The position numbers and the translations under genes were made by a program. The notes under the pieces are model-generated. The model was not told where the DNA came from, did not search any database, and was given only the letters and a program-made list of their open reading frames with translations. Shown in pieces: positions 43,901-53,986 of a DNA stretch of 64,000 nucleotides (position 1 is the first letter of the stretch; every line of letters begins with the position of its first letter). Source of the stretch: Blakeslea trispora (taxonomy: Eukaryota > Mucoromycota > Mucoromycetes > Mucorales > Choanephoraceae); the NCBI GenBank assembly GCA_025331445.1, contig JAIWNE010000015.1, forward strand, positions 62,001 through 126,000, in the 5' to 3' direction.

Positions 43901-44244
43901 GTCGTGGTTGATGCTGCTTATACCCTCTTTTAGTGTCAAATCCATAGTACGCCCCCCATTTTTCTATTTAAAAATTGGCATAGCTCTGTAGAATTCTCAC
44001 ATTCAGTGAAAATAGCTCCGCAAATCTTATTCATTTTTTTTGTTCATAGTTTGACTCGGGAACAAGTGTTTGAATTTGATTGGCCTGAGTGTTGATTAAA
44101 TAAACAGAGTATTCTAGCTCTCTCTCTTTTTTTTTTTTTTTTTTCTTTAGACGATTTTTTTTTTCTTATTTGTATCCTTCATTGGGTGGTAAACTTGGCT
44201 TAAACAACAAAAATAAGAAATAATTCATTATTGTTATAAAAATC
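40904..44244. other. Long intergenic region between divergent transcription-factor genes
   Basis: About 3.3 kb. Poly-purine and poly-T tracts, a C9 run near 43411-43419 and many short ORFs. A 61-codon ORF at 43253-43438 is preceded by a promoter-like pyrimidine leader, but it has no recognisable motif. No confident gene. Confidence 0.4.
43253..43438 (+). CDS. Possible small protein gene (uncertain)
   Basis: A 61-aa ORF beginning MLKFTSNIAGSFSSG, placed just after a CT/CA-rich leader similar to those in front of real genes here. A 39-nt GT-AG segment (43322-43360) inside it could be an in-frame mini-intron, but splicing is not required. No homologous family is recognised, and the length is near chance expectation. 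Listed only because its context is gene-like. Confidence 0.2.
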   Translation: MLKFTSNIAGSFSSGLVNLSSINGILVYYQVYKEIIVASSLSTKGRLKQVKLPPPQIKHCS

Positions 44245-45063
44245 ATGACCAACAACAATTCACTTGCTGATATACTCTCGTTGCCTATGGATTTTGCTGT
44301 TGACCCTCTTCTGGCAACTACTACTACTACTACTACTACTCTTGCTTCTCCTCCTCCTCTTTATAGTCCAAAGAGAAAGAGTGATGAAAAAGAAGAGTCT
44401 GTTGCCTCAAAAAAATCAAGACTTTCATTGGATGACAAAGACCAAAAGACAAAAGAAAGAATTCTCCGTAACCGTGCAGCAGCTCAAGAATCTCGTGATA
44501 AAAAGCGTAGATATGTTTCTGAACTTGAGTCTAACAACAAGCAGCTTACGGAACAGAATGAAGCATTAAGCGAACAAGTAAAACAACTGCAAGCTCAAAA
44601 TGCTCTCATGACTGCACAACTAGAAGCTATTACAAGACAACTGACTGGCCTACAACCACACCTTAAGTTTGACCATGATCATCCTATCTTATTTAATGAC
44701 TTTTGCGATTCAGCACGGATCGTGAAGAAGGAATGCTTTAGCTACTGAAGAAACACAAAAGATACAATCTATTCGTCTCATGCCAAGTTTACCACCCAAT
44801 GATTCTTCTTTATTTACTGTTGTTTCCTTTTCCCTGCAGCGGAGGTTGTTAAACAAGATACAGATGATACACAAGAACTTCAGGCGCCGAATTCAACCAC
44901 CCTATTGCCTTCTCCTACATTATTGTATTCATTCTCTTCAGATGAAGATACAGTGTATTCACCAAGCACAACAGTCAACCAAGATTTCCAACTGGATGAT
45001 CTGTTTAACTGGGATGATCAGCAATTCTTTGTTCTTAATTCTACTGGTATGAATGCCTTTTAA
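44245..45063 (+). CDS. HAC1/XBP1-like bZIP transcription factor with putative Ire1 intron
   Basis: Unspliced, the ORF is 44245-44748 (167 aa). It has a Thr run, a nuclear-localisation-like PKRKSDEK, a basic region at about 71-90 (ERILRNRAAAQESRDKKRRY) and a leucine zipper to about 133. It then stops. Removing 44714-44836 (123 nt) joins 44245-44713 to 44837-45063 in the same frame and gives 231 aa. The new C-terminus is acidic and aromatic (FSSDEDTVYSP, FQLDDLFNWDDQQFF), like an activation domain. The boundaries are not GT-AG. They sit in 7-nt hairpin loops (CAG|CACG and CTG|CAGC), as in HAC1/XBP1 mRNAs cut by Ire1. The factor would drive the unfolded protein response. No GT donor in suitable phase was found that would reach the acidic frame by ordinary splicing. 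Confidence 0.85.
44701..44727 (+). promoter_or_regulatory. Putative Ire1 5' cleavage hairpin
   Basis: TTTTGCGATT and GATCGTGAAG pair over 10 bp (four G-U wobbles) and close a 7-nt loop, CAGCACG. Cutting after the third loop base (44713) fits the CNG|C rule for Ire1 substrates. Loop position six is C rather than the usual G. Confidence 0.7.
44815..44858 (+). promoter_or_regulatory. Putative Ire1 3' cleavage hairpin
   Basis: The loop CTGCAGC (44834-44840) is the same as that of the animal XBP1 3' site as I recall it. TTTCC and GGAGG close it (five pairs, two wobbles), and an outer helix TTGTTT/AAACAA supports it. Cleavage after 44836 joins in frame with the 5' site. Confidence 0.75.
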
Positions 45064-45227
45064 GTCCCTTCCCCCTTCTATCATTTTGTCTTGTAATTAC
45101 TATCTATATACTACCCCCCTCCTTATCTAATATTGCGCATTTCTTTCTTTCTTTCTCTCTCCAAAGCTTGATTTTTCACTTTATTTTTTTTTTCGAATAA
45201 AAAAAAAGTAATTTCTTTTTTTTTATC

Positions 45228-46145
45228 TTAGTCTGTAAATAAGTATCTAATATCATTAAAATAAGCATGATTTAATGCATCCTTAGCACTAATTCTCAGC
45301 TGAGGTTGATATTGAAGCATTCGATTAAGTAAGTCTAGACCACATGTGTCAATCGTGGGCAAAAATTGAGAGATATGCTGAGGTGGATAGGCTACTTGAG
45401 CAGGCTTGTATTCTGGCAACTGAGATATATTAGGCCATGTTTGTTCATTGGGTGTACCCATCAAACGGAAAATCTTCTGAAGCTGATCTTCATTCGTTGT
45501 GCCTGGAAACAATGGCCGTCCTGTATACATTTCTGCCATAATACAACCTGCAGACCAAATATCAATCGATGTAGAGTACATACGTGAGCCTAACAAAACA
45601 TCAGGTGCACGATACCACAATGTTACTACTTCATTTGAAAACGTATTCACAGGGATACCAAAGGCACGGGCAAGACCAAAATCACCTAGTTTCAACTGAT
45701 GGTGCTTATTGATAAGCAAATTTTGTGGTTTCAGATCTCTGTGCAAAACACGGTTCTCATGGCAATAAGCAATACCTCGTAAGAGCTGGTACATGAACGA
45801 CTTGATGGTGTTAGCATCTAAAGCGCCATGTGTAGAGCGCGCAGCTGAGTCCATGTACTTTTTGAGGTCTTGGTCCATGTACTCAAATACAAGTGTCAGT
45901 TTGTTTTCTGTGTGAATGATATCCTGAAGTCGCATAATATTGGGGTGCTTCAACTCTTTCATCAGAGAGATTTCTCGAATGGCTGTAGATGGAGCACCTT
46001 CTTCTGGATCCAGATGTATTTCTTTTAAAGCAACAATCTCACCCGTAACTCTGCTTTTTCCTTTGTAGACTGTTGCATAGGTGCCTTCACCTAATTTTTC
46101 TAAACGCGTATATCTTTGGTCGGGTGGAAGACTATTGGCTGCCAT
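45228..46145 (-). CDS. pho85: Pho85-type cyclin-dependent kinase
   Basis: A single exon of 305 aa, and the only intronless kinase here. It has the Gly loop [16 protein letters not shown] lysine, the cyclin-binding helix [15 protein letters not shown] (Pho85/CDK5 form of PSTAIRE), [41 protein letters not shown] and a canonical C-lobe ending HAYFNDI. The activation-loop residue is Ser in NTFSNEVV, as in Pho85/CDK5, so no CAK phosphorylation is expected. Role by homology: phosphate sensing, glycogen metabolism and cell-cycle entry, acting with Pho80/Pcl cyclins. Its stop is about 165 bp from that of the convergent bZIP gene. Confidence 0.93.
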
Positions 46146-46640
46146 GGTTACTTTGAGATAAGAAAGAGTAGGAGAGAAAGAGAAAAAGAGAAAAGGAAGT
46201 TGACTTGTTTGAAGAAGAAGAAAAAAAAAGGGGGGAGGGGAAATAAAAAAAATAAAAATAAAAGGGCCAAAGTTAACCAGTAGAGGTAGATTTGGGGGGT
46301 GCGCATGCTTAATAGATGGACCAATGGAATGAATTTGTTTTAAAGTATGCTAAAGCAGAATCAGAGACAAGAGACAAAACCTAATGACTACTTATGCTAC
46401 AATATATGCCTATATTCCCCATAGATATAGTTTCGGAAAGATAGCAACCACTTTCTTACTTGGAAAATGCTAATATTCATCCTTTAGTCTATGCTTCAAC
46501 CAAAGTCACCGATTCATATGTACTGAATCAAAACATATATTACTGAAATTTGAAAAAAATTAGAGCACAGTCACGTGATTTTACCTTTACATCGAATTTT
46601 ATAGAAACAATGAAATAAATTGACTCAATCCATTACCCGT

Positions 46641-52507: not shown

Positions 52508-52510
52508 ATA

Positions 52511-52770
52511 CACCAAACGGAAAAATTATTTGCGTATTTTCGAAAAAAAGAATGGCGCACTCTCAAAAAAAAAGTTGGCGCATTTTCGAAATTCAAATTT
52601 GGCACATTTGAAAAAACGTTTCATCCCAAGACAGATAGAATAAGCTCAATTAAAGATGAAACATTTTTTCAAATGTGCCAAATTTGAATTTCGAAAATGC
52701 GCCAACTTTTTTTTTGAGAGTGCGCCATTCTTTTTTTCGAAAATACGCAAATAATTTTTCCGTTTGGTGT
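52511..52770. mobile_element. 260-bp foldback (MITE-like) element with TA target duplication
   Basis: Two arms of about 115 bp (52511-52625 and 52655-52770) are inverted copies with one visible mismatch, separated by a 29-bp spacer. The ends are CACCAAACGG...CCGTTTGGTG, with TA immediately outside each end, as expected for a TA-inserting element. Inside each arm are four degenerate copies of a roughly 24-bp unit with the theme TTGGCGCATTTTCGAAA. No ORF. It is probably non-autonomous, mobilised in trans by a Tc1/mariner-like or similar transposase (inference). Confidence 0.85.
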
Positions 52771-53986
52771 ATACAAAAAAAGATAAAATACACATCTATT
52801 TGATCAGACTCATCATGCTGACCTTCAAAGACATCTTTAATCGCTCGAAACGGCTGACAATAGGAAAGAACAATGAGCCGTTATTTGAGATAGAGGCTGA
52901 TTGAACAATACAGTTATCTACAGTAATATAATTTTAGTGCGCAATACGATAAGAGAAACATAGGCAGAAAAAAAGCAGCAGGAGAAGAACTGCTCTTTGC
53001 TATGTCTGTGTTACAGCAATCAATGCAGTTTATTGATTCCTTCTAAAGATAGCCAATACATATGAAAAGACCTATTTGATAAGGGTATAATATGTTTTTA
53101 CTTTAAAAATATTAGACTACTTGCTTGCTATCGAGTTGTACATTTTATATCATTTTGTATGTGGAGTGAACGTTATTCACCAAAAAAATCACCAAATTTA
53201 TTACTAAGGAAACAATAGCATGAAATCTTCTAAGGTGGACAGTTTTCTTTCTTTAGAGAAGGTAAGCTTTTGAAAGAACAAATAGGATCAAATGTTTGAT
53301 TTATATAGACAAACGACAACAACCAAGTTTGATCTTGGTACTGCTTGTGGTCGCCCTTCTCAAATAGAAACAAACTCCCTTTGATTTATAGCAGGAGGTA
53401 AGTTATTTCATATGCCTCAAAATGTACAGTGCTGATGATTTTTACCCAAAAAATCACATTACAAGCTTGATTCCATAAACGGGACACTTTTTTATTCGAG
53501 CATATCTTTCATTGACTCCTCTAATAGTGTTTCTTAAACGAAATCCAGCTCTTGTAAGGATTTCAGAGCGTTACTGGCTTCGTTTCTGAGACAAAGCTTA
53601 CTTCGTTAGCTTGATTGTCTTACTCACTTTCGTTTCTTATTTGTAGTCGAACAAACTTTCAATCACTGTAATTTTCTTGATGAATCTCTTTGGTAGAACA
53701 GAGAGAAAATTCTGTAGTTTTTAGTAATGTTCTGTTTGAGCCCACTCATCAAAAGGCATTGCATGTGAAAGCTTAAATGAGCGACGGTAATAACAACTTT
53801 TATTGGCTAACAGTGTCCAATCGTATTGCTTATTACCGGCGGAGTAGCCCCCAGACACAGCAGCCCTGCCTTTTTTTATGAGGGCCGGAGAATGTATCTG
53901 GTGAGTAGACTGCTTACAACACTCTCAGGCTGACGGATTTAGATTTTGGCCTAGTGAAAGTTTGCTTTTATTTCAAAAGGTGGTTC
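52771..53986. other. Gene-free region
   Basis: AT-rich DNA with no supportable gene. From about 53820 the composition becomes more GC-rich (GGCGGAGTAGCCCCCAGACA), leading into the tandem repeat array. The source is unknown. Confidence 0.4.

Follow-up and report, generated by a model that had tools for sequence, protein, structure and literature searches.

A predicted Ire1-type intron with an arm complementary to the putative leader in a HAC1/XBP1-like bZIP gene of Blakeslea trispora

Introduction

On the forward strand of a 64,000-nucleotide stretch of Blakeslea trispora DNA (contig JAIWNE010000015.1, positions 62,001 to 126,000; hereafter the window), a bZIP reading frame ends in front of an acidic open frame. 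The locus raises two questions: how the two frames could be joined, and what would keep the unjoined message from being used. All features of the bZIP gene described below lie on the forward strand, and their positions are those of the window. The assembly comprises 37.2 Mb in 285 contigs.

Translational control of HAC1 by a 5'UTR-intron lock has been studied in depth. In Saccharomyces cerevisiae, HAC1 carries a 252-nt Ire1 intron, pairing between the 5'UTR and the intron blocks initiation, and 11 bp suffice for repression (PMC8881652); the authors of this 2022 paper regard the association of leader and intron as found in the Saccharomyces clade alone. Unspliced yeast Hac1 ends in a 10-residue intron-coded tail, which silences it post-translationally (PMC5114014). 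The rule given for yeast Ire1 is a stem with a 7-nt loop that is cut after base three, and efficient cleavage requires C at position one, G at positions three and six, and G as the first base of the 3' leg (PMC549064). Our literature background as a whole is drawn from six articles (PMC8881652, PMC6222058, PMC4891664, PMC2905327, PMC5114014 and PMC549064).

Results

As the frame reads, the bZIP gene starts with an ATG at 44245, and its uncut frame runs for 167 amino acids to a TGA at 44746-44748, which bears out the stop at 44748 given in an earlier sequence-only reading of this DNA. The bZIP domain occupies residues 65-117 (44437..44595; PF07716, E 3.8e-12), with PF00170 matching residues 65-123 (E 1.1e-9), both above the cut-offs. 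When 44714-44836 (123 nt) is removed, one frame of 231 amino acids results, which ends at 45063 with an acidic tail and has the junction peptide CDSA|AEV. The earlier reading had proposed this removal, with cuts after loop base three on both sides, and the frame is restored as it described. Exon 1 (44245..44713) would then consist of 156 codons and one base from the ATG to the predicted 5' cut, and exon 2 (44837..45063) of 74 residues past the split codon, with the stop; this acidic tail can be aligned with the tails of relatives. In the uncut message, the in-frame TGA follows a 10-residue intron-coded tail, RIVKKECFSY. A Pfam scan found no domain besides bZIP, and no Rfam family matched 44000-45200 at E up to 5. 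Among named relatives, the nearest is a protein of Choanephora cucurbitarum, with 83% identity over 68% of the query. A close paralogue was sought in the fungus's own genome and none was found, the next bZIP match having E 4.2e-6 and 36% identity.

To place the junction, we used 122 relatives' proteins from three overlapping searches (59, 6, and the best 120 of 124 matches), of which 108 were inspected individually and all were scanned by script. The gene models of P0002 (Mucor lusitanicus) and P0027 (Hesseltinella vesiculosa) read FCDSA|AEV, identical to the predicted junction, and P0092 (Mortierella-like) joins at the same residue, as SA|AEAG. A second M. lusitanicus record, P0008, retains the intron and stops after CDSARIAKKECLIE. 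Other junctions appear in five gene models (one shared by P0003 and P0004, and one each in P0006, P0022 and P0030), and these are taken as gene-caller guesses. Four registers of the cuts in the window lead to the CDSA|AEV product; their intron ends are GC..CT, CA..TG, AC..GC and CG..CA, and no GT-AG, GC-AG or AT-AC register there does so.

We also considered whether an ordinary spliceosomal intron could serve instead. With donors at 44380-44799 and acceptors before 44960, there are 43 in-frame GT-AG pairs, 41 of which have a donor at or before 44578 and lose the bZIP domain wholly or partly. The remaining two share the donor at 44722 (44722-44844 and 44722-44883) and spare the domain, so the earlier statement that no GT-AG pair gives the frame was too strong. 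The intron 44722-44844 (ATC|GTGAAG...CGGAG|GTT) has its GT and AG in place, is in frame and is also 123 nt long; however, its product would read CDSARI|VVKQ where P0002 and P0027 have CDSA|AEV. Its donor, ATC|GTGAAG, is poor by the general donor consensus, which may differ from that of this genome, and five bases upstream of its acceptor lies a pyrimidine-tract CAG that is out of frame with donor 44722. It would, moreover, leave both of the Ire1-type loops described below without explanation, and we regard a spliceosomal intron here as very improbable. We note separately that P0059, P0029 and P0069 appear to carry one more spliceosomal intron, placed at KER|ILRNR within the basic region; the frame of the window is uninterrupted there.

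A further account would be that there is no intron, the short bZIP protein being the product and the downstream acidic frame unused. Many public gene models do end inside the intron (P0001, P0005, P0008 and P0011, for example), and therefore miss the acidic tail. Such intron-retained models are nevertheless the expected output of an unspliced resting message, and the acidic frame is conserved as protein, is in phase with exon 1, and is joined to it in P0002 and P0027. We give this account hardly any credence.

The enzymes that an Ire1-type intron would call for were sought in the genome. An Ire1 RNase domain is found at C259 (PF06479, E 2.3e-23) with a kinase domain in the same locus; the luminal part of Ire1 gave no Pfam match. 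A Trl1-type RNA ligase domain (PF09511) is also present. A three-domain Trl1 was looked for, and the ligase part alone was found: the healing domains PF08302 and PF08303 had no match in the genome, in searches run without a positive control. RtcB had no match in the genome, and the same search matched 9 of 14 control genomes. A stand-alone RNA ligase of Mucorales is reportedly the subject of published work on tRNA splicing. Together with the P0002/P0027 junction and P0092, the Ire1 RNase and RNA ligase domains support the proposal of the sequence-only reading that this is a HAC1/XBP1-type Ire1 intron in the bZIP gene of the unfolded protein response (UPR), and an Ire1-type intron in a HAC1/XBP1-like gene is our best reading of the sequence.

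Both predicted cuts fall in hairpins with 7-nt loops, whose positions and loops are as first described. The 5' hairpin (44701..44727) has a strong stem of 10 pairs and the loop CAGCACG at 44711-44717, with the predicted cut after 44713; it is equalled by 0.2% of 1,000 shuffles. The 3' hairpin (44820..44856) has 5 inner and 6 outer pairs, the outer helix being TTGTTT/AAACAA, and the loop CTGCAGC at 44834-44840, with the predicted cut after 44836. This 3' hairpin is weak, at -1.4 kcal/mol for the inner stem and -4.1 kcal/mol with the outer helix, and its pairing probability is 0.00-0.18 in four longer folds. At the 5' site the folding program pairs C44711 with G44717 and leaves a 5-nt loop (-9.4 vs -5.9 kcal/mol for the open 7-nt loop). 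Folding of the region, a check proposed along with the hairpins, did not favour the pair of them: the local minimum-energy structure has -31.8 kcal/mol, against -28.3 kcal/mol for the structure with both hairpins. Taken alone, 44690-44860 is no more stable than its shuffled versions (z -0.25).

Compared with the yeast rule, the 3' site (C-CTG|CAGC-G, on its weak stem) satisfies the pattern C-N-G|N-N-G-N with G after the loop, whereas the 5' site (U-CAG|CACG-G) has C instead of G at position six. The sequence-only reading had already remarked on this C, correctly, and the pattern turns out to be group-wide, extending to 61 relatives. In these 61 of the 122 proteins the frame continues past the 5' site as SAR, and since arginine codons are CGN or AGR, all of them have C or A at the sixth loop position and G at the seventh. 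The named records with arginine belong to the Mucorales. Thirteen records have valine at the arginine site, the named ones being Mortierella-type fungi and one Basidiobolus, and two Endogone-type records have alanine; these 15 outgroup records can keep G at position six. The rest of the 122 comprise 3 with a spliced junction and 43 without the region or modelled differently there. As far as back-translation can tell, the 5' loop looks canonical in the outgroups and shifted in the arginine group, where we infer that C1-G7 would take over the role of the canonical G6. Because one base of the 5' loop breaks the strict Ire1 loop rule, we do not claim full membership of the class.

A further feature of the locus was absent from the earlier account. 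The upstream arm TCATTGGGTGGTAAACTTGGC (44179..44199), 66 to 46 bases before the ATG in the putative leader, is a perfect 21-nt reverse complement of the intron arm GCCAAGTTTACCACCCAATGA (44782..44802), whose core is CCACCCAATGG. When the two regions were dinucleotide-shuffled 1,000 times, the longest match was 15; the maximum was also 15 among 603 control segments taken from the window with matching geometry, so that neither set reaches 21. No other same-strand complement of the intron within the window is longer than 12. We considered that the arms might belong to a dispersed repeat and rejected this, since the 21-mer, at up to two mismatches, has only two copies in the 37.2-Mb genome, both of them these arms. 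The energy of the duplex, -39.5 kcal/mol, is matched or exceeded by 2 of 2,000 shuffles, but also by 105 of the 603 controls, and is therefore uninformative as a test of pairing. Over ten assumed transcript extents, the duplex probability is 0.99 in four, 0.76 in one and about 0 in five, all five of which extend to 45180 or further. Just upstream of the leader arm, a long T-run ending in CTTTAG (44126-44151) has the look of a spliceosomal acceptor, and an ordinary intron may therefore lie within the leader.

To assess conservation of the arms, we sought the relatives' DNA for this gene among viral contigs and prokaryote genomes, with no match, and turned to back-translation of spurious protein ends, where gene callers had translated leader or intron; leader and intron come from separate records in this comparison. 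All six proteins that match the exon-2 frame have PAAE at the boundary, which is the in-frame reading of CCTGCAGCGGAG. The intron test used 19 translated introns, from the 18 proteins (of 122) with PAAE followed by V or A and from P0080. The 10-base motif was defined from the window, but several encodings had been noticed by eye before scoring; with this prior knowledge, CCACCCAATGG is encodable by 5 of the 19 introns, whereas 500 residue shuffles average 0.004 and never exceed 1. The encodings use all three reading frames (PPNG in P0030, P0064 and P0068, STQW in P0062, and IHPME in P0080 of M. lusitanicus), which suggests that the nucleotides and not the peptide are conserved. Nine of the remaining 14 introns start with Met-Glu, as would fit a gene caller using the ATG inside CCCAATGGA, and five have neither the core nor Met-Glu.

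Residues upstream of the usual start were recognised in three proteins (P0059, P0053 and P0018), and CATTGGGTGG is encodable by two of these translated leaders, as PLGG in P0059 and HWVG in P0053; for this motif, chosen in the same way, none of 2,000 shuffles reaches two leaders. In P0018, the remaining protein, just 13 such upstream residues are available. The pair 44179:44802 is T:A in the window, while the P0059 leader has C and the five introns have G at the respective positions. This would fit a compensatory change, as read from separate records. In a different part of the intron, the intron-coded tails of P0007, P0012, P0016, P0018, P0020, P0029, P0034 and P0066 have MCI, MCV, LCV, VCV or VCI just before the stop, and these peptides perhaps mark a second conserved intron element.

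These comparisons bear on another explanation of the arms, in which the intron is of the Ire1 type and the arms form no lock in RNA, being inverted copies of one DNA element (opposite CCAAT boxes) or a recent local inverted duplication. Its attraction is that ATTGG, a CCAAT box in reverse, lies within the core CATTGGGTGG, and that the duplex is disfavoured in the longer folds. However, the complementarity in the window goes 11 bases past the 10-base core. A recent duplication of this genome alone is made unlikely by the core being encodable in several relatives' introns and leaders, and the C and G at the 44179:44802 pair in the P0059 leader and the five introns are what pairing would require. 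We therefore consider this explanation unlikely, while giving it more weight than the two alternatives to an Ire1-type intron.

Discussion

Our preferred reading, to which we assign a probability of roughly 0.7, is that this Mucorales UPR bZIP gene of HAC1/XBP1 type has a 123-nt intron cut by Ire1 and sealed by a ligase, and that the 21-nt arm of this intron pairs upstream of the ATG and holds the uncut message untranslated. The upstream arm at 44179-44199 would be transcribed as part of the leader. In the resting cell, the two arms would be paired and initiation would be blocked, as in S. cerevisiae. Upon ER stress, activated Ire1 would cut both loops and remove the intron; the RNA ligase would join the exons, the intron arm would depart, and the full factor would be made, with a 74-residue acidic tail that may activate transcription. 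The message would thus probably lock itself silent until it is cut. If the lock were leaky, translation of the uncut message would yield a protein that ends in RIVKKECFSY and lacks the acidic tail.

The sequence-only reading had concluded that regulation works by an in-frame stop. That holds for the coding sequence, but given the 21-nt leader-intron complementarity, which suggests that the uncut message is hardly translated, the stop is probably secondary as a control.

By analogy, the architecture recalls the 5'UTR-intron lock known from S. cerevisiae HAC1. Both genes have a bZIP frame, Ire1-type loops, a long intron, and complementary stretches in the 5'UTR (putative here) before the ATG and in the intron, with splicing and repression being predictions in the present case. 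The leader arm lies at -66 to -46 here and at -38 to -20 in yeast (PMC8881652), and a 10-residue intron-coded tail on the unspliced protein is common to both (for yeast, PMC5114014). The two systems differ in intron length (123 vs 252 nt), in the complementarity, which is mismatch-free over 21 nt here and about 16 nt in yeast, in the sixth base of the 5' loop (C here, G in yeast), in the length of exon 2 (74 vs 18 residues), and in the host, a Mucorales-type fungus here and a budding yeast there. At 21 bp, the complementarity is above the yeast level of at least 11 bp.

The gene also resembles animal XBP1 and the Mortierella-type records, in which the cut after the bZIP falls at the equivalent residue of the protein (P0092 has SA|AE) and an acidic tail is gained by splicing. 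Animal XBP1 introns have 20-26 bases (PMC8881652), in contrast to the 123 nt here. P0082, P0091 and P0092, all Mortierella-type, have an apparent XBP1-like intron at the same residue and a long unspliced frame with a hydrophobic stretch. In P0082 and P0091 this frame runs well over 100 residues, which suggests a frame switch in the Mortierella-type records, whereas here the stop follows after 10.

The XBP1-like character of these Mortierella-type records suggests that the lock, if real, originated independently in Mucorales. On balance, we favour a history in which a leader-intron lock like that of budding yeast would have arisen independently in Mucorales from an XBP1-like ancestor: the intron would have grown, the unspliced frame would have shrunk to a short tail, the CCACCCAATG arm would have come to pair with the CATTGGGTGG leader arm, and Ire1 would read a shifted 5' loop whose recognition G is at position seven, not six.

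Pichia pastoris and Candida HAC1 share with the present gene an Ire1 intron of medium to long size, marked by two hairpins or by loops of seven bases; the length is 322 bases in P. pastoris (PMC2905327) and from 152 to almost 850 bases in Candida (PMC6222058). For P. pastoris, the sections of PMC2905327 considered here describe no leader-intron pairing, and for Candida, the term UTR is absent from the main text of PMC6222058.

Leader-intron pairing in a Mucorales HAC1 is not named in the article titles and abstract openings that we searched, a set that covers subscription journals thinly. Mucorales introns may already be listed in the HAC1/XBP1 intron survey of Hooks and Griffiths-Jones (2011).

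If the lock is real in a Mucorales-type fungus, it either arose twice or is far older than thought. It would also provide a second, longer natural duplex for studying how splicing frees a locked message, and the altered sixth base of the 5' loop, shared across the group, would be a natural experiment on Ire1 recognition.

Two neighbouring features of the window were noted in passing. A minus-strand open reading frame at 45228-46349 is protein-kinase-like, with a PSTAIRE motif, and lies tail to tail with the bZIP gene. Further downstream, an inverted repeat at 52508-52772 has 118-nt arms that are 99% complementary and 29 nt apart; it makes a long hairpin and is possibly what is left of a small transposon.
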